Assembly (NCBI GenBank): GCA_029706075.1 | Contig: JAINUG010000216.1 | Location: 930,001-994,000, forward strand | Length of the DNA: 64,000 nucleotides | Reading direction: 5' to 3' | From: Aldrovandia affinis | Lineage: Eukaryota > Chordata > Actinopteri > Notacanthiformes > Halosauridae | Part shown: piece by piece, positions 1 to 64,000 of the stretch | How the letters are laid out: the number at the start of each line of letters is the position of its first letter | Position numbering within the stretch: the stretch's first letter is position 1 | Position numbers and translations under genes: made by a program | The notes under the pieces: model-generated | The model's input: the letters and a program-made list of their open reading frames with translations, nothing else | Told to the model about the DNA's origin: nothing | Database searches by the model: none

Positions 1-1580
1 ATAAAATAGTTTTATTTTGCTAACGTTAACCACCTCCCCACCTAATTGTTCATAGTTGCGACAATGGTGATTTCTAATGTTGGTTATGTTAAACAAAAAT
101 ATGTCGTGAGTGGTGTAACGTTAGCTAGATTTCAATGCTGTTGTATTGCCGCTTCTGATCTCACTAAACTGGTTAGCCAGAAAGCGAATAAGCACTATCG
201 ATTGCGAAGTGACACTGCATTTCATATCAGAATATCCATAGGCATAATATAAAGTGAATGCGTGGATATTCTTAAGATAGCAGCTAACTAACTTAACCAA
301 CTGTTCGAGTATTGGAGTTAAGCGACTAACTTTTTTCCGAACTGAAGTGAATTTGTTATCGACAATTATATCGATAATGTTATACCATATTAACATAAGT
401 TACATTTAATTGAGTTCTCTAACTATATGCTCATTACTCATCATTAACAGACTAACTGTGACTTATATTTTAGCTGCACATATCAGCTACGTTCTCCAAA
501 GGTAAATGTTTAAATATTGCATTGCAAAAAGCTCGCTTGTGTTGTCTGACAGTATAGCGGACATGGCTGCGTTTGTTGCGGTTTTCATACAGTAGCGCGC
601 TAACAAGCTAACCATACCGTTTTTCGGGAGTCACATTTGTGGTTTCAGGGCACAACCCTCTGTTTCAGAATTCTGTTGTTTATCTTGTGGTGCTTATGCG
701 GTCTTTACAATTTTAAGTCTTCTCAAGTTGCGACTGGGTTGCACACATGTAACGTTATCTAACTACAGCGCAAGGATGCTGTAACGTTAAAATATCGTGA
801 ATGTAAGTTGGGGATGGGGGTGGGGTTTTGCTACCTTACAATCATTTTAACGAGGTGACTTTAGAAATGCAAATTCACGGCATCGACCACCAGTATCTGT
901 CAAAATCACTGTTAGTAAGTTTAGCTAGCTAACCAGCTAGCTATTTCAGTTCAATAGTTATTAGTTTTTCACGAATATCGTCTGAAATGTACTCTCAGTA
1001 TGTATTATCTGGCAACAAGTGCTTTTGAATGGTTTTGGATTTTATTACGTTGAAATTTAGCTTGCGATTTACGATTTGATAGGGTGGATGTTTCGAGAGA
1101 TGTGCAAAAGCGGTTTTTTTGCTCAGGATCTCCAAGGATACCCGAGTCACGAGACCGTGCTCTCCTATCTGCAGCAAACAAGAGCAAGTCAGCCTACCAA
1201 CCGGCGTTGCTAAGGAAGCCTGACTGAAGAAAAACGCTTGAAGTTGTGGTTGACTGGGCGTTAGCTCCTATTTCTTTTATTTGACCATATGGACCGTATT
1301 CATTATTTTAAATTGATCTACAGTCGGGCAGTATTAAATAAGTTTCTCTTTGCATGCTTTTGCCAGTAGTGTTCGTTCTTTTCGGTTTGAATATGCAAAT
1401 AAATCGTTTTTATTATTCAGCATCACTGGAATTAAAGTATGCCACTTCAATGCTCATTAGCGTCCATGTTATGCCAGAATTCAATTTTTATGTTAGCACA
1501 GCGAATTGACAATGGAGGCTTATAAATGTTATAATAACATTTGACTGGTTTTAATATTTATTTATTTACTTTTTCTGTAG
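1..1580 (+). other. msl2: intron of msl2 (no exon seen)
   Basis: AT-rich non-coding DNA that ends in a clear acceptor: a pyrimidine-rich run ending TTTTCTGTAG at 1571-1580, followed at once by msl2 coding sequence. I looked for the first msl2 coding exon (N-terminal helices and first RING cysteines) and found no frame that fits, so it should lie left of the window. Several GCTAGCTAAC-like stretches occur (around 920-950), which are common in fish intergenic DNA. No other gene is visible. Confidence 0.7.
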
Positions 1581-3226
1581 GGAATCTGCTGAAAGATCCA
1601 ATAGCTCCTACCAACTCCTCTTGCCAGCACTATGTTTGCAAAGCCTGCAAAGGGAAGAAGATGATGATGAAGCCGTCGTGCAGTTGGTGTAAGGACTATG
1701 AACAATTTGAGGAGAACAAGCAGCTCTGCATCCTGGTGGAATGTTACAGGAAACTCTGTGAATACATTGCAGAGTCCCCCCTTGCCCAGCAAATCACCAA
1801 CGCTGTCGGTGATTCACCGGACCTTTTGGCAATGTTGAGGGAGGGTCTGTCATTGACTGAGGGGAAGCCGGAGGAGCCCCAGATCTCCATGTCGCTTGAT
1901 CTGGCACATTCCCCGGCTCCCTCCACCTCAGAGGAGCCTAGTGTGGTCCAGTTGGAGGCCCCCCCGGAGCTCCCTGAGGCCCCCCTGACCCCACCCGGCA
2001 TCAATGGGCTGCATGACTGCAATGGCCTGAGCACGGTGGACGAGCTGACAGCCAGCTTGCCCTCTCCAGGTACGGCAGCGTCCATGGCCATTGATGTGTG
2101 TGGTGCGGTGGTGGAGGAGGAGGAGGAGGAGGGGCTGAAGGCAGACGGCTTCACGGACGAGATGCCGGTCTGCGAGGCGGCCGGGGAGCTGTGCGCAGAT
2201 GGCATCCACATATGCAGCTTCAGCGAGGACATTAAGCACAGTGGCGACCCTTTGCTGTTAAGCGTGGAGGAGGTGCTGCGGAGCCTCGAACCCGACCCCG
2301 ACCCCGACCCGGACCCTGGGGTAGAGGACCGGCCTGATGTCCTGGCCCCCACTTCCCTGCAGGCCCCCGGGACCCTCAATGGGCCGTTCCCCGAAGCCCA
2401 CCGCCAGCCCTCCCTCCCCCTGGACCCCGGGGCCTTCATCCCCTGCCACCCACAGCCCCCCTCCTCCGGGATCTCCTGCTCAGCAGCCACACCCAGAGCG
2501 ACACGGCCCAACAGGAAGCGCTCGCGGTCGGAGAGCGACAGCGAGAAGATTCAGCCCCTGCCCATCTCCAGCATCATCCAGGGCCCACCCCTGGTCACAG
2601 CCCCCATTGCAGTCAAGCGGGAGCCTAAGGTCCCGGCACAGCCTGTGCCGACAGTCCCCAACGGTGGGGCGCCCAAGGTCACCAAAACTCTGCTGGTGTC
2701 CAGCAAGGGCATTAAGAAGACCCCCGACCATGGGGCCAAGAAGGCCTACACCAAGGCCAGGCAGGGAGTCCCCAAGACCAAGGACAAGACGAAAGAGAGG
2801 ACCCCCAACAACAGCTTGATTCCGGGGAGTCCCACCAAAGTAGTGTACAAGAAGCCCCAGGAGAAGAAGGGCTGTAAGTGCGGCCGGGCCACCCAAAACC
2901 CAAGTGTTCTTACGTGCCGCGGCCAGCGGTGCCCGTGCTACTCCAACCGCAAGGCCTGCCTGGACTGCATCTGCCGGGGCTGCCAGAACTCCTACATGGC
3001 CAATGGTGAGAAGAAGCTGGAGGCCTTTGCCGTACCGGAGAAGGCCCTGGAGCAGACCCGGCTCACCCTGGGCATCAACGTCACTAGTATTGCCGTGCGG
3101 AACGCGGGCACCAGTGCCAGTGTCCTCAACGTCACGGCGGGCTCTCCCGTCACCTCGTTTCTGGCCGCCAGCCCTCATGACGACAAGAGCTTTGACGAGA
3201 CTCTCGATATGAGGTTTGACTGCTGA
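1581..3226 (+). CDS. msl2: MSL complex subunit 2 (E3 ubiquitin ligase), last coding exon, 5' partial
   Basis: MSL2 is the RING-type E3 ligase of the MSL histone H4K16 acetyltransferase complex and acts in the nucleus; it ubiquitinates H2B and pairs with MSL1. The exon starts in phase 1 (GG of a Gly codon) after the acceptor at 1580 and runs 548 codons to TGA at 3224-3226. The second half of the RING is present (CQHYVC, KKMMMKPSCSWC); the first Cys pair must be in the upstream exon. A disordered middle carries SFSEDIKHSGDPLLLSVEEV and RKRSRSESDSEK, both close to human MSL2. The C-terminal CXC domain (about 2870-2990) contains CKCGRA, CRGQRCPCYS and CLDCICRGC. The end MRFDC is as in human. Odd points: a poly-Glu run near 2115-2130 and a DP-repeat near 2290-2320, and high GC compared with the flanks. 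The in-frame ATG at 1541 is in the intron and is not the start. Confidence 0.95.
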
Positions 3227-6577: not shown

Positions 6578-7810
6578 CAGTGCATTCGGAAAGTATTCAG
6601 ACCCCTTCACTTTTTCCACATTTTGTTATGTTACAGCCTTATTCTAAAATGGATTAAATTCATTTTGTTTCCCCACCAATCTACACGCAATACCCCATAA
6701 TGACAAACCAGAACCCGGTTTTTAGAAATGTTTGCAAATTTATTAAAAATAAAAAACAGAAATATCACATTTACAAGTATTCAGACCCTTTGCTATGACA
6801 CTTGAAACTTAGCTCAGATGCATCCTGTTCCCTTTGATCATCTTTGAGATGTCTCTAGAACAGGGGTGTCCAAACTTTTTCCACTGAGGGACAAATACAG
6901 AAAAATATACGAAAGGCTGGGCCACTATTGGGGGGTTGGGTGCTACACGAAAATAATTCTTGCGCCCCTCGGATTTTCTGTCGACGGGGTGGGGAGGTTC
7001 CTGCTACGCGAAGAAAGCTGAGACCAGTTCGTTTATTTCGCGGAGTTTTTTTCGTTTATTTCTGTCACTAGTGGTGAAACTAAGAATTACAACTCAGTCA
7101 AGTGCAAGTTTCATGCGCGGGCCATATTCCTTATATTGGAATGCGGCCGCGGGCCAATTAAAAATGGACCGCGGGCCGTAGTTTGGACACCCCTGCTCTA
7201 GAACTTGATTGCAGTCCACCTGTGGCAAATTCAATTGATTGTACATGCTTTAGAAAGGCACACACCTGTCTATATAAGGTCCCACAGTTCACCGTGCATG
7301 TCCGAGTAAAAAACCAAGCCATGAAGTCCTATGAATTCTCCATAGACCTCTGAGATAGAATTGTGTTGAGGCATAGATATGGGGAAGGGTATAAATATGT
7401 TGCTAAAGCATTGAAAGTCTCAGGAGCACAGTGTATTCCATTATTGTAAAATGGAAGAAGTTTGAAACCACCACAACTCTTCTTATAGCTGGCCGTCTGG
7501 CCAAACTCAGTAATGGGACAAGAAGGGCCTTGGTCAGGGAGGTGACCAAGAACCCAATGGCCACTCCAAGAGAGCTTCAGAGTTCCTCTGCAGCGATGGG
7601 ACAACCTGGCAGAAGGACAACCATCTCTGCAGCACTCCATCAATCAGGCCTTTATGGTAGCGCTTGGCATTCGGGCCAAAAATTCCATTTGTGTCTCATC
7701 AGACCAGATAATCTTTTTCCTGAAGCTCTTAAGAGTCCTTTAAGTGCCGTTTGGCAAACTCCAGGTGGGCTGTCATATGCCTTTTACTCAGGAGTGGCTT
7801 CCGTTTAGCA
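6578..7810 (+). mobile_element. Tc1/mariner-like element, non-autonomous and interrupted
   Basis: Starts right after a TA (6576-6577) with CAGTGCATTCGGAAAGTATT, the familiar end of fish Tc1 elements. Transposase-derived sequence follows from about 7270 (the stretch that normally encodes the N-terminal helix-turn-helix), with stops and indels. At about 7645 the sequence flips: text of the opposite transposase strand follows, so the interior is an inverted fusion of two pieces. No matching right terminus was found, so the right border is approximate. A hAT-type MITE sits inside at 6861-7195. Confidence 0.8.
6861..7195. mobile_element. hAT-type MITE nested in the Tc1 copy
   Basis: Terminal inverted repeats CAGGGGTGTCCAAAC at the left and GTTTGGACACCCCTG at the right. 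It is flanked by an exact 8-bp duplication CTCTAGAA (6853-6860 and 7196-7203). The 8-bp duplication and CAGGG ends are hAT hallmarks. The 335-bp interior has no transposase. The surrounding Tc1 sequence continues across the site, which fixes the order of insertion. Confidence 0.92.
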
Positions 7811-8775
7811 TATGGGGGATATTTACCTCGGAAATGCACAGTAAAATTGTCCTCACTTAAACATATAGGTGCCCAACATTACCGTAGATTACGGTAAGAC
7901 GTTCTTCTTCTTCTTCTTCGTCGTTTGGGTATATTATTTTCCTGCTCCCCTAGGCTCGGGGCCGAGGGGCTATCCTTTTACCACCTCAAGCCTAGGGGGG
8001 GTTCACCCAGGCTATATTTCGGGGCACACCTCCAGCAGCCATGTCACCGTGTCGTCATCCAAAACCGACAGACCATGGATCCCATTGGGTGCCCGATAAA
8101 TCGGGCAATCCAAGATGACATGGTCTGCGGTTTGTTCCTCTGCGCCACACTCGCAGGCCGCGCAGGAGGCCAAGCCCCATCTGTGCATCGATGAGCAGAA
8201 ACGCCGACGCCAGTCCGGAGGCGGTTAAGCCTCACCCACGCCAGTCGGGCAGGTCCACCCCGATGGGGGAGGACCGGCGTCTGGGATGAAGTCACGGAGT
8301 CTAGAGGTGTTTTTCTCCCCTCCGTGCTCCAGGTGTAATCCACCCACCGTGCCGCACTGATATTAAGGTCGCTGCATTGCTGCAGGAGTTCCCGTGCGGC
8401 AGGCACAAATGGGTGTCTCGACTTGAGGCGCCGGGAGGCTCAGCTGTTAGAGTGAGCCTTTCATGAAGCAGATGGTTTGGCTCCATGGCCCGGCATGCGA
8501 GGCGTGCTATGGCTCCCGCACGGCGAAGCCCAGCGGGCTGGATGCCTGCAAGGATGGAGAGGTTGTCCACAGGAGTGGGACGCAGGCATCCTGTCACAAT
8601 GCGCAATGCTTCGTTGATAGGCGTATCGATGAGGCGGGTGTGAGCACTGCGACACCATACTGGCGCGCAGTACTCACTAGTCGAGTAGACAAGGGCCAGG
8701 GCAGCCGTACGCAGTGTTCTTGCCCGGCGCCCCAGCCTGACCCGACTAGTCGCCTCATCAATGCCACACGAGATG

Positions 8776-16727: not shown

Positions 16728-19700
16728 TCACTGGCTGACAAGGAAGGCGCCAAAGAAGCTGGACTTCTCGTCCATGTCCACAGTGCTGGCATTGCTGACT
16801 GACACGAACACTCTGTCACCGGCAGCCAGTTGGAAGACACCAGCCTGGTAGATGGAGTAGAGGCCGTACTCGGCACTCCGCGACCAGCAGGTGGTCCTGG
16901 CATTCTTCATCAGCAGTATGGGGATGGGGTAGGAGCCCACCTTCTTGTAGACGTACTGTAGCATCTGCTTGCCCCTCACAGCACTACCCTCTGCATCATC
17001 ACCCTCCTCTTCATCCTCCTCTTCATCATCCCCCAGAGGCAGGGCATGTCTGAAGTAGGTCTGGGAGTAGATGTAGTAGAGGCCAGCCTGAGGGACCACC
17101 AGTTCCCCATTGGTCATTTTGACGTTGTGTAGGAAGGCCAGGCCTTTCTCCGACTCCCACGACTGGATCTTCTGGCCTGGGATGCTGTTGCTGGGTGGCC
17201 CTGCAGTAGCAAGAACCAAAACTGAATTTTGGGTCTAAAATAGTTTTTTTTGTGTCAATGTGGGTCATTAAGAGGAATTCTAACTTCAGGCAATCACAAT
17301 GCAGGTGGACAGAATGTTTTTCTTTCGTACAAGAGTAGATGTGCCAAGCAATGTTAGTGAATCTGGCTCAACCTGAAAAAGTGATATGCCAAACAGATCT
17401 ATCCCCTTTATTTCAGTGTCAAGCTGTCACTAGCACATTATTCTCATGACAGAGTGGTGTTGGACTTCAGTCCTGGTGGTACTGGTTTTTGGTGTCATAC
17501 ATTAGCTAAAGAGTCCACCTTGTTTCCAATAAGAGTCCATCTTGTTTCCAAGGCCTAAATTGGCTGCTGAATGACAGGAAACCACAAAAATCAGACACCA
17601 TGGCCCTCAGGGACTTTGATTTGACACCATGTCTTGGGAACAATGTGTTGAACCCTGTCACGACACTATGTAACACTGTTTTAGAAAATATGAAATATTC
17701 CCTGTGCCATCTTAGTGTCCAGTGTACTGAGATTTTTGTTTTTACAAGAAAGCATAGGCTCCAGAATTTCTCATCCTTTCTTCCAACAGATCAAAAACTA
17801 TTTATACCTTCTCTTAATTACCTGAGCTAACTGGTCAAATCAAAGGCACTCATTTAGCAATTCACCACTTCAAACTATAACAAACCAACCAACCAATCAA
17901 TACAAATGTATGTTGAGAGACACCTCTTGGGTTGATTGAAGAACTGTCTGCAGCAGTGACCAGAAAATTCAGTGTATCCCCCTCTGGCACTAAGTAGCTG
18001 AAGCACCAGTGAGTCTGGGTCCACACAGTCAAGCTTGTGATAAAAACTCATTAAGATCCACAGGGAGCTGGCAGAGCCAAGCAGAGGGGTGTTTGTGGGT
18101 ACATTGGGAGTGCGAAAGCTGAGAATATTTAAATGCCATTTAAGCCTGGATTTTCTCATCCAAATAACTTGCAGTCCTTCTCCAGTGCAGGTGCTGGCTC
18201 CATGGCTCAATACTACCCCTTGAATAGAGAGACCAGAACAAGATCTCCTTATCAGCTTTTAGCCAATAACCCTAGACCTAGGATACACCTCAAAGCACAT
18301 TTGCAGTGAACTCTGAACTTGACTTGACTAATGTGAGTACACCATACCCTCTGCTGGTTGATTTGCTGCAGGGGAGAAACTGCCGGTGATGTGAGCCGCA
18401 ATCTCAGGACGATGTGGTGCCTCTTGGTCCTCTGTTGTCAGAGACGGCAAAACTCGCGATACTTCGTCTGCAAGAGAATGTCGAGGTTGAAGTGTTACTG
18501 CCAGAGCCCAGGACATGCCCTCTAAACGTTGGCTCAGAGCAATTAGGTCCAATGAATTTGAGACAGAAGGAACTTCAAAATAAATAAACACATTGGGAAA
18601 AGCACATACTGCCCTCCCAGAAATATAACTAGCTCCACATTGAGGCAAATTAGGAGGAAGAGTTAGTTTGTGTACTTTTAGACTGTTCAGCATTCGCTGT
18701 TAGAGATAATTAATTGATAATTTGAGTGACTGCCTACCTTTGACTGCAGAGTAGATTTCTTTCTCATAGCAGTTTGACATGGTCTGTGTAGAGAGAGAAA
18801 AGTTACATTAAACAATGAAAGAGAAACCCAGGATGCTTGTGTAGCAGTAACTTTAACTCCTTGTATTAAATACATTTCCTCCCCATTCACCTGTGACTAA
18901 CCTCGCCAGGTGTGCGAGTGCCTCTATTGAAGAACATAAATACATTGAATTCCAGAAAATAGAAGTACCATTGTAGGCCTGATTACTACCACATCCTGTA
19001 AGAGAACAGCTGATACCTTTTCAATGAGGAAATGGAGCTGCTGAGTGACTTGCCAGCAGGGGTCGTCTTTTCCCTCATCTGCGTTCAATTCCAAACCTTT
19101 CATGCTTTTTAGATTGGCGCGCATCAGACACGAAATACTGCTCTTGGAAAAATTCTCTTTCATCTGCAACGTGGAACAGTAAATCAGTGTGTTAAACAGT
19201 ACACAAATACGCTTTCCTCCCAAAAAGCATGTAGAAAACTATGTACGCACAATACCCATAAATGACTGTGTTTTTTCAAGGTTAATCGTGGTTGATAGTG
19301 CTTTTTTTACTTTCAATTCACAAAATTAAAATTAAAATGGTTAACATGTTCTCTCTCTCTGATACAGCCTGAAAAGGTTATGGTTACCCTATTGGTAGAG
19401 TGACTCTTTGAATATATGCTGATGTTGCGCTGTATGTTGAAAATGTTTAATCCTTGTTTAAGATTAGGCCTAAACAGATTCTGTCCACCTGCGACTGCAA
19501 TTCAGTAAATCCAGAAATTAAGCTTTTCATTTGAAAAAATAATCGAAATCATCCAGTAATTTTAGTGGAATATTTAATCTACTACTGTGTTGTAGCGAAC
19601 GCGAACATCTATGTCACGCACCTTCTTAGTGCTACTGCTGTTATACATTTGTTAATTAAATGACATGATAATCTCACAAATTCCTTAAGTCACTTAAAAA

Positions 19701-44194: not shown

Positions 44195-45312
44195 CCCAGC
44201 AAACAAAGAACGTTTCCGTAACGTTAGCTCAAGGTTCTCTTTTGGTTTATTTTTCGTGAACCTTCCCAGACCGTTCGGGAACGTTACATTATGGTTTGCA
44301 ATTAACCAAAACCATAACAGAACGTTCAAATAACCACTTAAAATAACGTTAACTTTAAGGAATATTTGAACTAAAATGGAACGTTCTCCTAAGGTTCTCC
44401 TTAGGTTGTCTGTATTGGAACCTTCCCAGGACGTTCTGGGAATGTTATAATATTGTTTGCAATGAATCAAAACCAAAAATCAGCAATGAGAGCTGAAGAC
44501 TTTTGTTAAGTTCACAAATTAGATGACCAACATTGTAAATAAAGCTTATGAGTAAGGGGGCGTCCCAATCCGTCATGGCCATTATATTATAATATAATAT
44601 ATACGAATATATACAATATATATATTTATATAACCCTATAAGGGTACTCCTTAGAAGAAAAAAGTTAACGTAGAGCCCTGGTATGCTATGATGAATTACC
44701 TTTATGTCACTAGCAATGGTCAATAATGTTATCAAAAAGATACAGAAAACAGCACAATTTATTTCAACAATTTATTTTTACAAAATCCAATGAGGGTCAG
44801 TAACTTGTTTTACAAATCAATAGATACATACAGGGCTAGATTTTAGTCTGTTTCCTTGGAAGAATTGAAACTCCACCTATTCAATGCTAATTAGAGTCAT
44901 TCACACAGTCGAGCCCTTTGTCCCTAGACCAAACCAACAGTACTTACATTGCGCGCCATTTTTAAAATTCTCTCTCTACTACAATCTATCGCAATGGCTG
45001 TGTGATGCCAAATCACGTCCACCGCCAAAATGTGTCCACGGTGATGTAATCGAATTTTTATGATGTCATCGAATTTTGGACTGCAGTTGCTATGCCAACA
45101 TGACGTGCTCGCATTCCCGAGTGAGAAAATGGCGTCCACTGCCAAAATGTGTCCACATGGTGATGTAATCGGAATGTTGGACTGTGTGATGACCAAAATG
45201 GGTCCAGGGTGATGTAATCGGATTTTTTCCACGGCCAAAATGGGTCCAGGGTGATGTAATCCGAATTTTGGACGCTAAAACGCGAGCGAAAAAAAGAATG
45301 TGTCCAGGGTCA

Positions 45313-45950
45313 GCTGCACAGTTGAGTTAGCTGCCTTTACTACGAACATAATATATGAATTATAATATAGAATTATAGGCTATTATAATGATATAGGCAG
45401 CTAGCTACGGACATAATAGTATCCTTTGTCTGTTTAGCTGCACAGTTAAGTTCGCTGCCTTGCTACGAATATAATATATGAATTATAATATAGAATTATA
45501 GGCTATTTTAATGATATAGGCAGCTAGCTACGGACATAATTGTATCCTTTGTCTGTTTATCTGCACAGTTAAGTTCGCTGCCTTGCTACGAATATAATAT
45601 ATGAATTATAATATAGAATCATAGGCTATTTTAATGATATAGGCAGCTAGCTACGGACATAATTGTATCCTCTGTTCAGCTGCACAGTTAAATTCGCTGC
45701 CTTGCAACGAATATAATATATGAATTATAATATAGAATCATAGGCTATTTTAATGATATAGGCAGCTAGCTACGGACATAATTGTATACTCTGTTCAGCT
45801 GCACAGTTAAATTCGCTGCCTTGCAACGAACATAATATATGAATTATAATATAGAATTATAGGCTATGATATAGCTAGCTACGGACATAATTGTATCCTT
45901 TGTCTGTTCAGCTGCAGTTAAATTCGCTGCCTTGCATTTACATCCATTAA
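45313..45950 (-). repeat. left array of the foldback arms (about 6 units)
   Basis: Successive units start about 123, 123, 119, 119 and 111 bp apart. The shorter ones have lost bases around TGTCTGTTTA and in the TTTTAATGATAT part. They read TTAAGTTCGCTGCCTTG on +, the reverse complement of the right array. Confidence 0.9.
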
Positions 45951-46177
45951 ACGCGAAGGCTACTCAAGGAATGTCAGGATATATGATATATCTATTATTA
46001 TTATGTTTGAAACAGCGAACTTTCCCCCCTCCACTAGCATCACTAACACAATGTAAAATCTAAAACAATTAACAATATAAGCACAGCTCCTATACAAAAA
46101 GGAAATGATAATGGTGTTATCACGATTTTTATTTTACTAGCAGATATTTCACTAGCCATCTAAGCAGACGATCCATA

Positions 46178-47315
46178 TATTATATTCGTAGCAAGGCAGC
46201 GAACTTAACTGTGCAGCTAAACAGACAAAGGATACAATTATGTCCGTAGCTAGCTGCCTATATCATTAAAATAGCCTATGATTCTATATTATAATTCATA
46301 TATTATATTCGTAGCAAGGCAGCGAACTTAACTGTGCAGCTAAACAGACAAAGGATACAATTATGTCCGTAGCTAGCTGCCTATATCATTAAAATAGCCT
46401 ATGATTCTATATTATAATTCATATATTATATTCGTAGCAAGGCAGCGAACTTAACTGTGCAGCTAAACAGACAAAGGATACAATTATGTCCGTAGCTAGC
46501 TGCCTATATCATTCAAATAGCCTATGATTCTATATTATAATTCATATATTATATTCGTAGCAAGGCAGCGAACTTAACTGTGCAGCTAAACAGACAAAGG
46601 ATACAATTATGTCCGTAGCTAGCTGCCTATATCATTAAAATAGCCTATGATTCTATATTATAATTCATATATTATATTCGTAGCAAGGCAGCGAACTTAA
46701 CTGTGCAGCTAAACAGACAAAGGATACAATTATGTCCGTAGCTAGCTGCCTATATCATTAAAATAGCCTATGATTCTATATTATAATTCATATATTATAT
46801 TCGTAGCAAGGCAGCGAACTTAACTGTGCAGCTAAACAGACAAAGGATACAATTATGTCCGTAGCTAGCTGCCTATATCATTAAAATAGCCTATGATTCT
46901 ATATTATAATTCATATATTATATTCGTAGCAAGGCAGCGAACTTAACTGTGCAGCTAAACAGACAAAGGATACAATTATGTCCGTAGCTAGCTGCCTATA
47001 TCATTAAAATAGCCTATGATTCTATATTATAATTCATATATTATATTCGTAGCAAGGCAGCGAACTTAACTGTGCAGCTAAACAGACAAAGGATACAATT
47101 ATGTCCGTAGCTAGCTGCCTATATCATTAAAATAGCCTATGATTCTATATTATAATTCATATATTATATTCGTAGCAAGGCAGCGAACTTAACTGTGCAG
47201 CTAAACAGACAAAGGATACAATTATGTCCGTAGCTAGCTGCCTATATCATTAAAATAGCCTATAATTCTATATTATAATTCATATATTATGTTAAGTAGC
47301 AAGGCAGCTAACTCA
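46178..47315 (+). repeat. right array of the foldback arms (about 9-10 units)
   Basis: The marker GAACTTAACTGTGCAGC recurs at 46201, 46324, 46447, 46570, 46693, 46816, 46939, 47062 and 47185, always 123 bp apart, followed by one diverged end unit at 47308. The units are almost identical (one visible change, ATTCAAAT, near 46513), far more uniform than the left array. Confidence 0.95.
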
Positions 47316-49439
47316 ACTGTGCAGCTGACCCTGGACACATTCTTTTTTTCGCGTTTCGCGTCAAAATTCGGATTACATCACCCTGGACCCATTTTGGCCG
47401 TGGAAAAAATCCGATTACATCACCCTGGACCCATTTTGGTCATCACACAGTCCAACATTCCGATTACATCACCATGTGGACACATTTTGGCAGTGGACGC
47501 CATTTTCTCACTCGGGAATGCGAGCACGTCATGTTGGCATAGCAACTGCAGTCCAAAATTCAGATGACATCATAAAAATTCCGATTACATCACCGTGGAC
47601 ACATTTTGGCCGGTGGACGTGATTTGGCATCACAGCTGCACCGGGAAGGCGGCTCTCTTACAACACCACGGATTCATGATCGACTAGTTTCATCTAGTCC
47701 CGCCGACACAGAGAAGAGATTGTTGCATGCTATGACTGGCCTGTCTCACCAGGTGAAAGAGTCTTTGGAAGACATGAGTGTACAAGTGAGTAGAGGATTT
47801 GAGTCGATGGAGAATAGAATAGGAATTTTGGAGAAAACGGTGTCAGCTTTGGTAGCCCATAACGGTAACATTACACCCGTGGAGGAGATGAAGAGGAAAA
47901 GACGGGCGCAGAATCCCAAAATTGCGGTAAGAGAATGTTTGCAGTGATTAAATGTGCCTATAAACTGTTTAATTTGATATTTGTAGTGGGATTAGCCAAC
48001 TAAGCTAGCTTCCAGCTGCTATTGTTGTACCAGCTTCAGTAAACTGTCTAGCTAGCTTCGACGGCGATTATCCGCGAATTTAGTTGATTTTCAATGTACC
48101 AACACTCAAATAAGTATATCTTTTATTTATAGATTTCGATGTATGACACTTAATTTGAGAGCGTGATTAAATACGCCTACAAACTGCATGAAAAGATGAT
48201 TTCTTTACTTTCTTTGTCTCCACTAGTAAATTGGAGAGATTCATTAAGTGACTTTAAATCTTGTATTTCATAGAAAGCAGCGCGTCGTCTCCACAACTCT
48301 GAGGGAAATAGCAGGCGCTACGAACCAGAGCAAGGGTAAGATACAAAATAAAAAAGACTACATGCATTCTGCTGTATAAATGTAAATAGGTTCTCTAATA
48401 TATTTATATTTTGTTTTCAGAGACTGAGCTCGCCTCGCAATGAGGCAGTCACTTCTTATTTGGTGGAAGCTCTAGCAGCAAGCCCGGATTTGCATAGTGT
48501 GGATAATGATGCCATTATGTGTAAGTATTTTACTGTTTGCTGTACTGTGCAGATTTTTCGTTTTTACTTTTAAAAGTACTTTTAGTGTGGCTATTTCCAT
48601 TGTTTATGCATAGACTACCATACTCATTCAATTGTTTTCCAGCGGCCTGTAAGACCTACTATGAGACCGTACGCAGGAACTTCCGGTTCAGCCAACGGAC
48701 CTTGCAGTTCAGGCAGAAGCCGTGAAGAATGCAGCCCGCAGTCGACAGAGAAGAAAGGGTAAGATTTACTAGACAGTAGTACAAATATGAATACACTATA
48801 GAAGATATAACCAGTATAGACAGTGGTATAAATAATGAATAATATTGTTGGTCAATGTGACATTAATTTTCTGTTACATTAGTAGATGTCTTGTGTCAAC
48901 ACGCAGTGCATTGAGCAGTACTGATTGTCTATACTGATTGTGTTTACAGCTGCTGGAAGCGAGGCAGAGTGTACTAGTTCCAGGTGACATGGATTTCTGG
49001 AAGGGCGTCACTATTGACCTGATGTCCGATGAGGAGGACTGCATCCAAGAGGGGGTGTCTGGGTGGATTGTGCGGCCTCCATTCTTTCTCGCAGCGAGGA
49101 GCTCTCCAACCTGTGTGCCAGACTGCAGGACTGCCTGGATTCTAATCCAAAGTACACGGCAACACATCGACGGCGTCTGCCCGTTGTTGGAGCACATCCA
49201 GACAGAATGCCACCAACTGCATATCCATCAGGCGGCAGAAAGACATTTCAATCCCCTTCTGATGCCCCAGGCCCCTGCCCGTCATCGACTGTAATACTGT
49301 ACCTTTTTTATACTCTGTATACTATGTATATCTGTATACTGTATACTTTGACTTGATTTGTCTTTGTTTTTTTATACTCTGTATATTGTGTACCTACCTG
49401 GTTGTGCCTTTAAAAAAAAAGTCCCTTTCCAGAGCTCTT

Positions 49440-52322: not shown

Positions 52323-53139
52323 ATTGGCAACCAGAATGTCGGGATCAGTACCAGCCCCTGCGCAGTTTCTCCTGTGTGTGGGTGAGCCAGCCATTCCGTT
52401 TGAAACTTGGCTGAAAATATTTGATAACTATCTGCTAGTTATTAACGCTACAGGAAATGCGTGGCCAGATGTGAGACACCGTGCTATTTTAAGAACATAA
52501 GAACATAAAAATACATAATGATGAGAACGGGCCGTTCGGCCCATCTAGGCTCGTCATGTCCTAATCTAAAGAGTATCTAGTACTACATCTAGCCTGGACT
52601 TGAATAGCCCAAGCGTTTCTGCCTCTACTACCCGACCTGGCAAGACCCAGGGCACTTATTTTCGCTATTCGTTTTCCTAAGCTGCATCTTAGGCGTCTGG
52701 GTTCTATTCCAGCTTTGTTTTTTTTTGTTTGTGTTGCGACTCAAATAATTTATTTCTTTTTTCCTCTGCGTGTGGTGTTGGTCTACACGCTAGAATTTTC
52801 TGTTTGGTTTTACTATCGTTTGGTACCGTTCGCAGACTGCTTTTATTCACCCTTTTTTGGGGTAGTTATCATTTCGTCTTATGCTGGGAGTTTTGTTTTA
52901 TGCTCTGTAGCGATTCTCGCGGGTTAACGCCCCTTGCTCCCTATTGTGTTTTAGTGACATCCTGATTGTTCAGAAGTGTTTCTGATCCTTATTCCCCATT
53001 GGTCGTGTAGCGGATGGGCTCACGTGAGGCCGCTGCAGAGTGACGTGGATAAGAGTACGATTAGCTTAATCGCTCTCTTGTCGTGTCGGAGATCCCCTCG
53101 GTTCGAAACTCGCTGCGGGCAGAACCAACACCGTCACAG

Positions 53140-53157
53140 TGGTGCCGTGACTCGGAT
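53140..53157 (+). promoter_or_regulatory. tRNA-His primer binding site, first copy
   Basis: TGGTGCCGTGACTCGGAT is exactly complementary to the 3' 18 nt of vertebrate tRNA-His including CCA, and lies one base after the LTR end. Confidence 0.85.
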
Positions 53158-53208
53158 AATACAACTGATGGCAATCGGTTGGGCCGTGGTTGCTGCCGCA
53201 TGAGTTTC

Positions 53209-53219
53209 GAGGGGGAGAG
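53209..53219 (+). promoter_or_regulatory. polypurine tract before the middle LTR
   Basis: GAGGGGGAGAG immediately precedes TGTAGCGG of the middle LTR. The counterpart GAGGAGGAGAG at 53462-53472 precedes the third LTR. Confidence 0.75.
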
Positions 53220-53392
53220 TGTAGCGGATGGGCTCACGTGAGGCCGCTGCAGAGTGACGTGGATAAGAGTACGATTAGTTCCCCGGAGTTAGGGACTTGA
53301 GTCTTTAGCTCAGCGAGCTTAATCGCTCTCTTGTCGCGTCGGAGATCCCCTCGGTTCGAAACTCGCTGCGGGCAGAACCAACACCGTCACAG

Positions 53393-53410
53393 TGGTGCCG
53401 TGACTCGGAT
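53393..53410 (+). promoter_or_regulatory. tRNA-His primer binding site, second copy
   Basis: Identical to the first copy, one base after the end of the middle LTR. Confidence 0.85.
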
Positions 53411-53905
53411 AATACAACTGATGGCAATCGGTTGGGCCGTGGTTGCTGCCGCATGAGTTTCGAGGAGGAGAGTGTAGCGGATGGGCTCACGTGAGGCCGC
53501 TGCAGAGTGACGTGGATAAGAGTACGATTAGTTCCCGGAGTTAGGGACTTGAGTCTTTGGCTCGGCGAGCTTAATCACTCTCTTGTCGCGTCGGAGATCC
53601 CCTCGGTTCGAAACTCGCTGCGGGCAGAACCAACACCGTCACAGTCGCACTTGGGCCTCACCCCTACAAGCCCTCACAGTACACTGAAGCCAATATGCAG
53701 GCACCAGCGACCACCCAGGTTTTAGACCAGGTATTGGCTACATAGCAGGCAGCCTTAAGATCTCATGCGGAGGGCATTCACGCCCTCCAGATTCAACAAC
53801 AGGCTGTTTTAGAGCAACAGGGGGAAATGCTTGCCAGGGTGACTGTCTGTGCGAATTAGCAGACAATCTCCGTCGTATGACGTTAGGTGACAACCACCAG
53901 TCCTT

Positions 53906-54592
53906 ATGAATCCTCCATCTCAACTTGATCCTCTCACCATTAAAGAGCCCAAGCTCCAATTGCCCCTCAGGTATGATGGGGAGTCTGGAAAGTGTAGGGG
54001 GTTCCTCTCCCAGTGTTTAATTTTTTTTAAGGCACAGCCCTCACGCTTTTCAACACATGATTCCCGGGTGGCATTTATTCTGTCTCTGCTAACTGGGACT
54101 TCTCTCGCTTGGGCTGACCCCCTGATTAGGTCTAATTCCCCCCTGATGAATAATGCGGATAAACTTATGAAGGAGATAGCATTGGTGTTTGACCACGATA
54201 TCTCCAGTCAGGAGGCAGCCATGAGGCTAACCCGTCTTCCCCAGGGTACTGATACAGTGGCCGGGTTCTCAATAACATTTCGATCACTGGCAGGGGAGAC
54301 AGGGTGGCCAGAGGGTCCTTTGTCGACACTGTTCCTCAACGCACTGTCTGACCCGGTTAAAGACGCCCTGTCTGTGCTCGAACCCCCTACCTCTTTTGAT
54401 GCTCTGGTTTCCACTGCTATCCGTACAGACAACCGTATCAGAGAGAAGGAGAGAGAGGGAGGTCAGAGGAGGGACCGCTCAGATCGCTTTTACGTTCCGA
54501 CCCCTCCCTCCACCCGCTCGTCCGTTCACAGAGAGGAACCCATGCAGGTGGACAGCTCGACTCTGCGTGAGTCTCCGGGGCACAACCCGTGA
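53906..54592 (+). pseudogene. gag of the nested gypsy element
   Basis: A 228-codon frame with FILSLLTGTSLAWADPLIRS, VFDHDISSQEAAMRLTRLPQ and FLNALSDPVKDALSVLEPPT, the capsid pattern of fish gypsy/Sushi-type gag. A frame change at about 54590 separates it from the zinc knuckle CRYCKRWGHSRDNCP in the next frame. Relics of the N-terminus with stops lie at 53693-53900. Confidence 0.8.
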
Positions 54593-54739
54593 TGAAAGCT
54601 GTCGCTACTGTAAGCGCTGGGGGCACAGTAGGGACAACTGCCCAAGGTTGTCGGGAAACCACACGTCTCGCTAGTTGGAAGGAAGCCACTAGCGAGACCT
54701 ACCACCACAGGCTTCCGAACTCTCTTACCCGTCTGTTTA

Positions 54740-56388
54740 TTGTGGGGCCAGCACTCCATTACAGTGGACGCATTCCTTGACTCTGGAGCTGTAGAGTGTT
54801 TCGCAGACGCTCAGTGGGCTAGGAAAATGAGTTTACCCATTCACTCATTATCCCATTCCCATTTAATTACGGGTCTCGATGGTCATCCATTAGGTACAGG
54901 GGTGGTTAAAGAGACCACTGGTCGAATAGATATACGGGTGTCTCACTGGGAACGCATTCGGTTATTTTTAGTAGACTCCCCTGCCTTCCCTCTCGTTTTA
55001 GGCCATTCATGGTTAGTCCGACACACGCCGCAAGTTAATTGGAGTAATGGTCATAACATCATTCTGCGGTGGGGTCCTCAGTGTTCTTCACATTGTCGAT
55101 TGACGTCACCACCCTTTACGGGCGGTAGGGGGTGTATCACAGAGACCGAGTCTGACAGCGATGAGGGGGAGGAGGAATATCCTGTGGGTTCAGGAGGATC
55201 ATCTCAGGAGAGTTTGGCCTGGGACTGTGCGGCTGATGGGGACAACCCCTGGGATGAGACCTCCATAGAGGGGTTTTTGGAGCCAGAGGACTTTGATGAC
55301 GAGTTCTCCATAAGTGCAGCTGCGGGTTTAGTAGGGGCCCTTACCCACTAACGTGCCGGCCAAATACATTGACTTAGCCGAGGTTTTCAGCAAGCAGCGG
55401 GCCATTACCTTGCCGCCCCATCGTTCCTATGATTGTGCGATCGACCTGTACCCAGGCACTATCCCACCTAGGGGTTCACTCTACTCACTATTGGCTCCCA
55501 AGAGCGCCGCCATGAAGGAGTATGTTGAGGAGGCATTGGCTAACGGGCTCATTAGGCCCTCGACTTCTCCGGCTGGTACGGGTTTTTTCTTTGTCCAGAA
55601 GAAGTATGGGGGATTAAGGCCCTGCATTGATTATAGAGGTCTTAATACTATCACTGTTAAAAAACGCTACCCTCTACCTCTAATGAACTCTGCATTTGAA
55701 CGTCTCCAGGGAGCGAAGGTGTTTTCCAAACTCGACCTTCGTAACGCCTATAATTTAGTGCGTATGCGTAAGGGAGATGAATGGAAAACAGCCTTTAATA
55801 CTCATAGTGGGCACTACGAGTACTTAGTGATGCCATTTGGGCTCAGTGTTTCAGGCGTTCATCAATGACGTGCTCAGAGAGATGTTAGAGAGATTTGTCT
55901 TCGTCTATTTAGATTATATTCTGATTTTTTCGAACAACTTGACTGAGCACGTTACACACGTTCGGCATGTTTTAAAGGCTCTGCTCAGGGCGCAATTGTT
56001 TGTCAAGGCGGAGAAGTGCGTTTTTCATGCTCCCATAGTGTCGTTTTTAGGGTTCATTGTGGCTGAGGGGAAGGTCCAAATGGACCCAGAGAAGGTCTCG
56101 GCGGTGATGCGCTGGCCCACCCCGCGGTCCATTAAGGACATTCAGCGGTTTTTAGGGTTCGCAAACTTTTATCGGCGAATTATTCACAATTTCTGTGCGC
56201 TCGCAGCCCCCATCACTGCATTGACCAAAAAAGCAGCATCCTCGCGGTTCCAGTGGAATCCTACCTTCCACATCTCCCGTCTCAAGCCAGTTCTCATTAG
56301 CGCTTTGGCTCCCGCTGATGCCCCGCCACCCCCCACCTTGGTTCGTCGGTGGGGGACCGGTGTATACGGTTCGCCAGATTCTGGCTGA
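54740..56388 (+). pseudogene. protease and RT of the nested gypsy element, deleted
   Basis: 54740-55351 holds the protease (FLDSGAVECFADAQWA and FPLVLGHSWLVRH). 55353-55868 holds the first RT half ([20 protein letters not shown] and [14 protein letters not shown]). A frame change follows near 55850. 55837-56388 then holds the second half, where the catalytic box reads FVYLDYILIFSN: the second Asp of YLDD is Tyr. After [12 protein letters not shown] the frame jumps to [11 protein letters not shown], the integrase C-terminus, so RNase H and the integrase core are gone. A chromodomain relic ([18 protein letters not shown]) follows in another frame. Confidence 0.85.
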
Positions 56389-56558: not shown

Positions 56559-57259
56559 TGTCATGGTTTGAGTGCCTGTTTAGCCCTGTGTGGGCGTACT
56601 CCTTTTCTATCCTCGTGAGTACGTTCCTGCTCATTTCCATATCTAATCAGCGGATTGTTTTCAGGTGTTCACTGCCTACTTCAGTTCGCTGCTTTCACTA
56701 CTCCGTGCTTCAGTGTCTATTCATTTGGCGTTGAAGCCGGTACGGTGTCAGTCCTAAAAAAAAGAAAGTATTTAGAAAAGTATTTCACTTTAGCTTTCTC
56801 GCCACTTCTACGGAAGTCTACCTTTTCTTATTTTGTTTGGTCTGTGTTTCGGGGTTACTTACTGGCAGACCCAGGGCACTTATTTTCGCTGTTCATTTTC
56901 CTAAACTGCGTCTTAGGCATCTGGGTTCTATTCCAGCTTTGTTTTTTTGTTTGTGTTGCGACTCAAATTATTTTATTTATTTTTTCCTCTGCGTGTGGTG
57001 TTGGGCTACACGCTAGAATTTTCTGTTTGGTTTTACTATCGTTCGGTACCGTTCGCGGACCACTTTTATTCGCCCTTTTTTGGGGTAGTTATTATTTTGT
57101 CTTACGCTGGGAGTTTTGATTTATTTTCTGTAGCGATTCTCGCGGGTTAACGCCCCTTGCTCCCTATTGTGTTTTAGTGACATCCTGATTGTTCAGGAGT
57201 GTTTCTGATCCTTATTCCCCATTGGTCGCACTTGGGCCTCACCCCTACAAGCCCTCACA
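56559..57259 (+). repeat. 3' LTR of the nested gypsy element
   Basis: Begins TGTCATGGTTTGAG after the purine tract and ends AGCCCTCACA. It includes the intact site CATTGGTCGCACTTGG that is split by the miniature element in the left LTR. Confidence 0.8.
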
Positions 57260-57706
57260 GTTCCAGGCATTGACAACTCTCTGTGTAAAGAAAAACTTCC
57301 TAATATCTGTGCGGAATTTGCCTTTAACTAATTTCCACCTGTGGCCTCTTGTTCTGCTGACCCCACTTATCTTACAAAATCTTTGGTATTTTACTTTGTT
57401 AATCCCTTTTAGGAATTTAAAAACCTAAATCAAATCCCCCCTAAGTCTCCATTTGCTAAGTTTACAATAGATTGAGTGCCTTAAGTCTATCATCATAACC
57501 TTTACCTTTCATACTAGGTATCAGTTTAGTTGCCCTTCTTTGGACTTTTTCAAGAGCTTATACATCTTTCTTGTAGTGTGGTGCCCAGAACTGCACACAG
57601 TATTCTAAGTGAGGTCTGACAAAGGCATTACATAGCATTAATATAACCTCCTTTGATTTATACTCAATACTTTTTGCTATGTATCCCAGCATCCTGTTGG
57701 CTTTTT

Positions 57707-61665: not shown

Positions 61666-63672
61666 TCAAGAACTATTTACAGTCTTTATGCCTTTTCTTT
61701 TAGACATTTGTGGTCTCTTCCTCATCTTGCTCAGCCGGAGCTGAGTAGATATCTGCAGTGAAGAGAGAGAGCATCCTTGGTGTTGGCTTGAATTTGTGGC
61801 AGCAGATTTTTTTCTTTGCATATAAGCTCGAATTCTCATTATATTTAACAGACAGTTTTGCTCCAACCTGTTTCGCAGCTTGTTCTTTATGAGAGTCATT
61901 TGGGAAAAAGCCCGTTCAACAGCAGCATTGCTGAATGGTAAAGCAAGAAGAGACAGGGCAAAGTTTCCCAGTTCTTCAAAATCTCTGTCATCTGCTGCAT
62001 CTGTGTGCATTGCAACTTCAATCCAAAAGTCTTCAACTTTGCTGTCCTCTGTATTTTTCCATTGTAAAGCATGAATGACTCTCCACTGTTGCTCTGCTTT
62101 TCCTATATCTCCTTTGAAGAGAGAGAGGAAGAAGGGAAGATCATCTAGCTTTGGCTTATTTGCACACATAACATGGCTGGGTGACAGGAATTTGAGAGCC
62201 TCTAGTTGTTTCATGTTATCTGGAAGCCTCTTCTTGATCTCCTTGGCTAACTCTAGCATGTAGTCCCTGCATCTCTTTTTCATGTCCTGTACTGCCTGGT
62301 CACTTATTCCTCTTGATTCATGCAAAGCAAGACGGAACTGCACCCCTAAGTCTACAGCATCTAAGGGGAGAAGATGCTCATCAGACAGGGTAAACTCCAT
62401 GATGTCATGCCAGCTCTGGAATGTCTGTGGCAACGTTATACGCTCAAGTAGAGATTGGTAGAATGTTACAAGTTCTGCTAGAAGTTTTGCAGGGTTGGGT
62501 GTGTCCAGTTGAAAGATTTTATTCATCCTGTTTAACTCTGACACAATTGGTTGGGGGAATTTGAGGTAGATCAGATTAATATTGTCATTGTACATTTGAT
62601 AAAGCAGCTCTGCAGGATAGCTTCTCTCACTGTCTTTTGTCAACTGGAAATGCAATTTCAGCTCCTCATACTGTGAAATGATACGGTTCACACACTCACT
62701 GATGGCAAGCCACCTAGTGTCAGATAGTTGCAGTATCTTCAAGGGTGTTTCACCTACATTTATGGTCTTGTACAATTCTGCATATTTTTGAAGGCGCTGT
62801 GTGGCATTTGAAAACCAGCTGTAGGTCTGAGACACCATGTACTTCACATTGTGTGGCAGGACATTCACAGCTTTTGATGCACAGAGCTGAAGGGAATGGC
62901 ACACACACTTGATGTAGACAATGTGGGGATTGCGTTCCCGAAATTTCTGAAGCACTGAGTTATGTTGTCCACACATTGTGTTACAACCATCAGTTGCAAG
63001 ACCAATGCAATTCAGTATGGACAGTTTGTTGTCATCCAGAAACTTGAACAAAGCATTTGCTATGGTCAGCGAATTACCAGCTGCAATATGTATCATTCCT
63101 GCAAAAGTGCTAATGATTTGTGAGTGCTTTTTGCTGTAGTATCGGATTACAACACACAGTTGTTTTCTGGTTGTGACATCAGTGCTTTCATCAACAATGA
63201 GAGAGTATGTTCCACTCCCTATATCCTCCAGAAGGTCTTCGTTTGCTACAGGCCCTATCACTGAATTTATCAGTGCTGTGCATTTGGTTCTATGTAAACT
63301 AATGCCTGTCTTGGACATTTCTTCCACTACACATCCTAAATGATCAACTGTTAAAATGCTTGAATGGCAAGCAAAATGTGCAGCCAGCTGCAGCTCTGCC
63401 TCCTTCACAGGGACATTTCCTCTAAGAAATGACGTGCCTGTACCAAATAGTGTTCTGGCATTTGAGAAAGGAGCGGCATTCTTTTTGTGTTTTTCTGTGG
63501 CAGCATGGGCAACCAGGTCACTGTGGTGGGCTCTTATTTCTGTCTTACAATATTTGCAGAATGCTTTTCTGTCGTCATTGGGAACACTCTTTATCCATTC
63601 CATCAACCCTTTCTCTCTCTCCCAGTCCTTACGATTTCTTCTCCCGTATTTTCCCCATTTACCTGGTGGCAT
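61666..63672 (-). CDS. hAT-family transposase with BED finger, intact
   Basis: 668 codons, no stop. An N-terminal BED zinc finger comes first (FCKYCKTEIRAHHSDLVAHA, then EKHKKN). The catalytic core follows: SLIVDESTDVTTRKQLCVVI with the first Asp, LATDGCNTMCG with the second, the CVCHSLQLCASKA motif of the insertion domain, and SDTRWLAISE. The C-terminal hAT dimerisation region reads FALSLLALPFSNAAVERAFS and KNKLRNRLEQ. The first Met (63672) lies just before the BED domain, and upstream is GCTAGCTAGC-repeat-containing non-coding DNA. The low-complexity region on the 3' side (61150-61280) is CT-rich. It looks capable of activity; whether it is expressed is unknown. Confidence 0.93.
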   Translation of the reverse strand: MPPGKWGKYGRRNRKDWEREKGLMEWIKSVPNDDRKAFCKYCKTEIRAHHSDLVAHAATEKHKKNAAPFSNARTLFGTGTSFLRGNVPVKEAELQLAAHFACHSSILTVDHLGCVVEEMSKTGISLHRTKCTALINSVIGPVANEDLLEDIGSGTYSLIVDESTDVTTRKQLCVVIRYYSKKHSQIISTFAGMIHIAAGNSLTIANALFKFLDDNKLSILNCIGLATDGCNTMCGQHNSVLQKFRERNPHIVYIKCVCHSLQLCASKAVNVLPHNVKYMVSQTYSWFSNATQRLQKYAELYKTINVGETPLKILQLSDTRWLAISECVNRIISQYEELKLHFQLTKDSERSYPAELLYQMYNDNINLIYLKFPQPIVSELNRMNKIFQLDTPNPAKLLAELVTFYQSLLERITLPQTFQSWHDIMEFTLSDEHLLPLDAVDLGVQFRLALHESRGISDQAVQDMKKRCRDYMLELAKEIKKRLPDNMKQLEALKFLSPSHVMCANKPKLDDLPFFLSLFKGDIGKAEQQWRVIHALQWKNTEDSKVEDFWIEVAMHTDAADDRDFEELGNFALSLLALPFSNAAVERAFSQMTLIKNKLRNRLEQNCLLNIMRIRAYMQRKKSAATNSSQHQGCSLSSLQISTQLRLSKMRKRPQMSKRKGIKTVNSS

Positions 63673-64000
63673 TGTCGCTGTGTGTACTGCTAGCTAGCTA
63701 GCTAGCTAGCTAACGTTCACGTCCTCACTGTACCGGTATGTATTTCTCGCTCGCTCTCTCAGCTGTCTCCTTCCCTCCCTCTCTCGCGTCGCTCCTCAAA
63801 ATCGGGTCTCCCTTTCGTCAACTCTCTAAAAAAATGTTTTTATTGTTGTCGACAAGCAGCAGAGGCAGAGCAAATATCTCTTAGCTAACTTTAGACTTCT
63901 TAACTTCCAACTTCTTAACATTCGCCCGCCTCCAAATTTAGAAGTGAACGTAGTACGTAACGTAGCTATCAACGCTAAATGACGTGAATTCAAACGCACC
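63673..64000 (-). other. hAT 5' non-coding region
   Basis: Holds a (GCTA)n run at 63690-63712 and a CT-rich tract near 63745-63785. No promoter motif could be fixed. Confidence 0.5.

Follow-up and report, generated by a model that had tools for sequence, protein, structure and literature searches.

A tandem three-LTR TRIM of the Helenus type in the fish Aldrovandia affinis and its likely Ty3/Gypsy helper

At positions 53006–53643 of a 64-kb stretch of the Aldrovandia affinis genome (64,000 nucleotides of contig JAINUG010000216.1, hereafter the window), three long terminal repeats (LTRs) of 133, 172 and 171 bp alternate with two internal segments of 81 bp. The alternation of three LTRs with two 81-bp segments, stated in the preliminary description of the locus, is thus confirmed. 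The locus raises the questions to which class such a miniature element belongs, how its tandem form arose, and which element provides the enzymes for its movement. We conclude with considerable confidence that the locus holds a Helenus-type TRIM (a miniature LTR element) in a tandem form with three LTRs, for which a coding Ty3/Gypsy element, here called A, most likely supplies the enzymes.

Structure of the insertion and its host element

The insertion lies within the 5′ LTR of another LTR element. The features of the insertion and its host are as follows, with the basis of the assignment in brackets where one applies.

52637..53678, + strand: 5′ LTR of the host LTR-element, split by the insertion (outer ends approximate)
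53002..53005, no strand: left target-site duplication GTCG (sequence)
53006..53138, + strand: LTR1, 133 bp (alignment to LTR2)
53100..53110, + strand: B box of LTR1, GGTTCGAAACT (box pattern)
53139..53219, + strand: internal 1, 81 bp (repeat alignment)
53140..53157, + strand: primer-binding site (PBS) in internal 1, 18 bases, tRNA-His
53209..53219, + strand: polypurine tract (PPT) of internal 1, GAGGGGGAGAG
53220..53391, + strand: LTR2, 172 bp, complete
53306..53316, + strand: A box of LTR2, TAGCTCAGCGA (box pattern)
53353..53363, + strand: B box of LTR2, GGTTCGAAACT (box pattern; conserved among copies)
53392..53472, + strand: internal 2, 81 bp (repeat alignment)
53393..53410, + strand: PBS in internal 2, 18 bases, tRNA-His
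53462..53472, + strand: PPT of internal 2, GAGGAGGAGAG
53473..53643, + strand: LTR3, 171 bp (repeat alignment)
53558..53568, + strand: weaker A box of LTR3, TGGCTCGGCGA, which fails the strict pattern
53605..53615, + strand: B box of LTR3, GGTTCGAAACT
53644..53647, no strand: right target-site duplication GTCG
53891..56388, + strand: host gag-, protease- and RT-like ORFs, frames broken
56862..57260, + strand: host 3′ LTR with the empty site (ends approximate)

The layout first given for the LTRs holds for LTR2 and LTR3, but LTR1 is not full length. A deletion of 39 bp, with CGATTA and TAATCG at its edges, has removed LTR columns 58–96, which correspond to the A-box half of the tRNA-like stretch. 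Folding of the whole LTR is stronger than that of shuffled sequences (z of −2.8 and −3.1, with 0 of 200 shuffles each); the apical hairpin of this fold is lost through the LTR1 deletion, a single event that proves nothing. The internal segments do contain the PBS and the PPT, of which they had been said to consist of little more, but each holds approximately 50 further bases. We take the PBS, TGGTGCCGTGACTCGGAT, to be complementary to the 3′ end of tRNA-His plus CCA; the source genome contains one exact 20-base copy of the tRNA-His 3′ end.

That the element is a real insertion is borne out by the other LTR of the host, where the empty site consists of a single, uninterrupted GTCG at 57225–57228. 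It is also fairly recent, as had been proposed. The two internals are identical at all but 1 of 81 positions; LTR2 and LTR3 differ by 3 substitutions in 171 positions and one 1-bp gap, and LTR1 and LTR2 at 1 of 133 positions when the deletion is left aside, as against 20 substitutions in 397 positions and 5 gap columns between the host LTRs. Given this divergence of the host LTRs, the insertion postdates the host element, as the nesting demands. The host element was considered as helper and rejected, its LTR and leader being unlike those of the Helenus-type element.

Within the window, Helenus-type repeats are found at 53006–53643 only. Other features of the window include one 123-bp satellite in two arrays of opposite orientation, approximately 240 bases apart (45310–45935 and 46174–47326, the latter with 9.4 units at 99%), a transposase-like open frame of 675 codons with a hAT dimerisation domain and DUF4371 (61666–63693, − strand), an ordinary gene, seen as a long open frame that encodes the RING and CXC domains of MSL2 (1538–3226), and a frame with a TNF-family domain (16728–17234, − strand).

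The genome-wide family and its tRNA-like LTR

TRIMs with tRNA-like LTRs were named Helenus by Kojima 2024 (PMC10886601). According to that paper, Helenus is known from zebrafish and other fishes, with families in sterlet, paddlefish and coelacanth; the animal elements make 4-bp duplications, are primed in vertebrates by tRNA-His, -Leu or -Lys, and are tied to Gypsy elements by the likeness of their primer sites. The zebrafish family LTR-11_DR is reported there to comprise 5575 LTRs and 2618 internals and to include tandem arrays. Since fish Helenus elements, tandem arrays included, were thus described in 2024, a vertebrate TRIM is not new, and the novelty suggested for the present one falls away. 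A meeting report also mentions Helenus; among the titles and abstract openings listed in literature searches, no further reports of vertebrate Helenus were found, and none of hybrid insertions of the kind described below.

Like the published fish Helenus elements, the window element is small and non-coding, and combines a tRNA-like LTR with a conserved B box, a PBS and a PPT; its family likewise shows 4-bp duplications, primer sites for tRNA-His, solo LTRs, a high copy number and tandem arrays. Unlike in the published elements, the A box is weak in most copies here, and the likeness is one to their description. The two further marks of animal Helenus elements, 4-bp duplications and a Gypsy-type partner, are both encountered, the latter as a probable partnership. 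Judged by the published descriptions of Helenus, the element is a Helenus-type TRIM.

The family was surveyed in the whole assembly of the window (1.22 Gb). A search with the LTR gave at least 60 matches, corresponding to 40 loci (40 of 1983 candidates were scored), all of which were examined, and a two-LTR search added 28 loci (40 of 2390 candidates scored), chosen as short two-LTR copies; both samples are biased toward copies that resemble those of the window. The 40 loci comprise 19 solo LTRs, 12 plain two-LTR copies (a form of approximately 424 bp), one two-LTR copy with an internal deletion (L038), three three-LTR copies (L001, L016 and L023, the last without its right end), two hybrids (L003 and L037) and three truncated copies (L024, L030 and L039). 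Their internals are 94–100% identical to those of the window. Exact 4-bp duplications flank 31 of the 34 full-ended loci from the LTR search and 21 of the 28 further loci, the remaining seven being off by one base (among them L092, with one full LTR only), giving a total of 52 among the 62 loci for which the comparison was made. The preferred target is weakly palindromic: in 31 duplications, the first base is C in 23, the fourth is G in 26 and the base after it is C in 26. Pattern scans of the genome yielded 215 window-like LTR/PBS junctions, at least 566 junctions by a looser pattern, and 319 window-like internal starts, with 0 matches for the reversed-pattern control in each case. The LTR/PBS stretch gave 0 matches to viral contigs.

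It is evident that the count of forms proposed in the preliminary description reveals a dispersed family, whose members range from solo LTRs through two- and three-LTR copies to probably longer ones. The two-LTR form falls below the size of approximately 1000 bp that bounds TRIMs; the elements carry LTRs at both ends, a PBS and a PPT, and show the empty site and fixed-length 4-bp duplications of integrase-type insertion. No coding sequence lies between two Helenus LTRs in any of the 40 loci of the LTR search, so the family is not always part of a longer coding element; the 28 loci of the two-LTR search, selected for shortness, are uninformative on this point. Tandem Repeats Finder calls a period of 253 bp at the locus, as would befit a local tandem array or satellite rather than a mobile element. 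This reading, which retains next to no probability, is refuted by the empty site, the duplications and the solo and two-LTR copies at many places in the genome.

A perfect 18-base PBS is present in 31 of 52 primer sites examined. In four of the 52, the PBS is interrupted by two additional bases (TGGTGCCG-CG-TGACTCGG), an interruption that resembles the offset in the primer site of element A.

The tRNA-like stretch of LTR2 consists of the A box TAGCTCAGCGA followed, 47 bases on, by the B box GGTTCGAAACT. A strict pair of A and B boxes appears in 1 of 5000 shuffles of LTR2, and the only other pair in the window is accidental and lies at the LTR1 deletion. In a set of 111 LTRs (from L001–L040 minus the two hybrids, L065 and L074–L101; hybrids L003, L037, L041, L042 and L066 and LTRs below full length were left out of the LTR sets), the B-box pattern is found in 95. 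A strict A box is present in only 36 and both boxes in only 33, since most copies have G at the seventh position of the A box (54 of 82 LTRs); LTR3 lacks the strict pair. Each B-box column is conserved to at least 0.946 in 56 LTRs, but the mean over the whole LTR is 0.973, so that the conservation of the B box is weak evidence either way. ARAGORN and Rfam reported no tRNA. Runs of four T residues are absent from 53220–53643 and occur in 2 of the 111 LTRs, so that no RNA polymerase III (pol III) terminator is evident. The B box and its spacing support an origin of this stretch from a tRNA, and the stretch is perhaps a pol III promoter, for which it is a candidate.

A possible, if somewhat doubtful, alternative is that RNA polymerase II transcribes an otherwise ordinary TRIM, in which the tRNA-like stretch would be the fossil of an old SINE insertion that has lost its promoter role. 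The degenerate A box of most copies, the failure of LTR3 in the strict test, the lack of a terminator in 53220–53643 and the negative tRNA searches would all be expected from such an element. Moreover, the well-kept blocks of the LTR include CACGTG and TGACGTGG stretches, which could bind pol II factors. Against it speak the B box, intact in the large majority of LTRs and well conserved in each column, and the presence of both boxes in the published fish Helenus elements (PMC10886601), for which, as for TRIMp3, that paper too presents pol III transcription as unproven.

Element A and the hybrid insertions

The two hybrids found with the LTR search (L003 and L037, in extended form L041 and L042) carry on their left a foreign LTR of approximately 360 bp, which begins with TGTAAC and ends with CGGTCACA. 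A search with this LTR gave at least 42 matches (40 of 860 candidates scored) and identified it as the LTR of a coding element of approximately 7.7 kb, element A. One copy of A (L059) has LTRs at 137–491 and 7468–7818, a CATG duplication and ORFs of 514 and 1450 residues. Pieces of the 1450-residue ORF correspond to RT, RNase H, an integrase zinc-binding domain and the integrase core, in the Ty3/Gypsy order, and one RT piece gave matches to RT chains of Ty3 in the PDB (E values of 4.6e-7 and 2.2e-6); the 514-residue ORF matched no Pfam family. By its order of RT, RNase H and integrase, its LTRs and its target duplication, A is classified as a Ty3/Gypsy element. Another copy (L063) has two LTRs with a TGTG repeat at both ends, but within a TG-rich stretch. 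Junctions of an A-type LTR with its leader number 26 in the genome. In the leader of L059, the primer-site region recurs in imperfect form approximately 175 bases downstream of its first copy.

The leader of A starts with CT-TGGTGCCGTTCGACTCG, that is, with nine bases of the Helenus PBS followed by a two-base offset, and its match to tRNA-His extends over these nine bases only. A and Helenus have in common the first nine primer-site bases, the LTR start TGTA and near-identical LTR ends (ACACCGGTCACA and ACACCGTCACA), but their LTRs are otherwise unlike, and a direct comparison gave no match. The Helenus internal and the leader of A share two short blocks of 11–17 columns, a similarity equalled or exceeded in 4 to 13 of 500 shuffles, which hints weakly at a descent of the internal from the leader of A.

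The end of the A LTR is joined to a Helenus internal at six places in the genome (control 0). All six junctions lie exactly at the primer site, with the CT of A before the PBS and Helenus sequence after it. Three of these hybrids are complete, with an A-type LTR on the left, a Helenus internal and a Helenus LTR on the right, enclosed by matching 4-bp duplications (CTGG in L041, TGTA in L066 and TAAG in L072). The left LTR of L072 is a diverged relative of that of A, to which only blocks 1–75 and 267–362 align. Three matching duplications would arise by chance with a probability of approximately 6e-8 at equal base use, and somewhat more often given the target preference. The duplications could be compared in these three of the six hybrids: L065, in which the PPT of A precedes the LTR and a further Helenus unit follows on the right, has a left end beyond the sequence examined, L073 is degraded, and L042 ends in other sequence. 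In L042, the sole reciprocal junction found, a Helenus LTR is followed by the leader of A and by gag-position and RT-bearing ORFs, with no second LTR within the next 9 kb.

These structures suggest how the two elements may have met. The plus-strand strong-stop DNA of an LTR element comprises a single LTR followed by a PBS that is copied from the tRNA, and as a rule it anneals to the PBS complement on the minus strand of its own element. In the hybrids, the plus-strand strong-stop DNA of A would instead have been transferred to a minus strand of Helenus by way of the PBS; the product would be A-LTR, CT, PBS, Helenus internal and Helenus LTR, the structure seen. Such a transfer would need A and Helenus to be reverse transcribed in one particle, as we infer from the products. 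We propose that transcription of Helenus probably starts in the LTR, with pol III as a possible polymerase, and that reverse transcription would be primed by tRNA-His at the PBS and at the PPT, signals which are both present. The cDNA would integrate with the 4-bp duplications observed, the enzymes most likely coming from the ~7.7-kb element A. Because an insertion whose two LTRs are unlike cannot be propagated as such, each complete hybrid should represent a separate event.

The hybrids could also stem from recombination between adjacent integrated elements, seeded by the nine-base identity of the primer sites, in which case A need not be the helper. The continuation of L042 into the leader of A and the PPT of A at the left of L065 are in keeping with such an origin. 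However, separate insertions that recombine would not yield matched duplications, as found in all three complete hybrids, and this weakens the recombination reading, as does the position of six out of six junctions exactly at the primer site; we consider it improbable. The hybrid products thus point to A as the likely helper of Helenus. Besides the 215 LTR junctions and six hybrid junctions, approximately 100 of the 319 window-like internals have left neighbours outside the patterns used, so that other helper families are possible.

Tandem forms and relation to other elements

Two origins may be envisaged for the three-LTR form: a template switch between two Helenus templates, or unequal crossing-over after insertion, between two LTRs of sister copies. 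The outer duplication fits either. To the crossing-over we give close to an even chance. It would keep the outer duplication, as observed, and agrees with internals that differ at a single position; repeated exchange would also suit a run of 12 LTR/PBS junctions with steps of 224 to 255 bases on C1202. Template switching, however, fits equally well (Sabot and Schulman 2007, PMC1950507), and in the incomplete tandem L023 neighbouring LTRs are of unlike subtype at 3 of the 5 linked sites. No such mixture is seen in the window copy, and L016 differs at 1 of 5 linked sites only. A two-LTR copy with a CCTG duplication, L085, has mates of unlike subtype at 5 of 5 linked sites. L023 and L085 favour template switching in those cases.

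Among the matches listed of the 215 junctions, the longest runs are those of 12 on C1202 and of 3 on C446, followed by runs of 2 on C990, C1291 (the window), C1546 and C1800. Judged from its 12 evenly spaced junctions, C1202 likely holds a Helenus array of 13 LTRs and 12 internals at ~946.5–949.6 kb.

A random pairing of LTR mates was suggested by a first sample, biased toward copies like LTR2 of the window, with a mean of 6.8 differences within and 6.6 between elements. It was refuted with 41 loci that have two full LTRs, in which the differences are 3.77% within and 5.96% between elements (0 of 5000 permutations). As mates are clearly closer to each other in these loci, the mixing of templates is exceptional; L085 alone has mates that differ in subtype at all five linked sites. 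The split at site 93, which had hinted at random pairing, is of CpG type by its context, as are 121 of the 263 within-pair substitutions. A bolder reading, possible if rather unlikely, is that A particles hold several Helenus RNAs and that intermolecular strong-stop transfer is routine, generating the hybrids, copies like L085 and the tandem arrays. If true, tandem TRIM arrays would arise in reverse transcription rather than in the chromosome.

Comparable structures are known from plants. Like the window element, Cassandra (PMC7215508) has a tiny internal, an LTR derived from an RNA gene, and arrays of LTRs and internals, for which that source names routes of both kinds, unequal exchange and template switching. 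Unlike the plant element with its 5S rRNA sequence, the present one is animal, has a tRNA-like LTR and 4-bp duplications, and its proposed helper is of Ty3/Gypsy type. Recombination between co-packaged plant elements (PMC5668417) is a related precedent. The complex insertions of Triticeae attributed to template switching (PMC1950507) resemble the hybrids as composites within one duplication pair; as described there, their outer LTRs are alike and their parents are related full-size elements. In the hybrids, by contrast, two different families contribute the outer LTRs, and the switch lies at the primer site. In soybean, autonomous and non-autonomous LTR elements have reportedly swapped LTRs (Du et al. 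2010, going by its title). By that title, coding and non-coding partners exchange LTRs as in the hybrids, in which the host is an animal.

What appears to be new here is a likely helper, element A, together with hybrid insertions in the same genome. Whereas animal Helenus is tied to Gypsy elements by the likeness of primer sites in Kojima 2024 (PMC10886601), the hybrids point to one Gypsy family. Two unlike LTRs inside one target duplication would be direct fossils of a single reverse transcription shared by two elements, and they provide both a helper that can be tested and, in the primer site, a point of switching. Foreign LTRs joined to a TRIM internal at the PBS may thus offer a way to find the helpers of other TRIMs.
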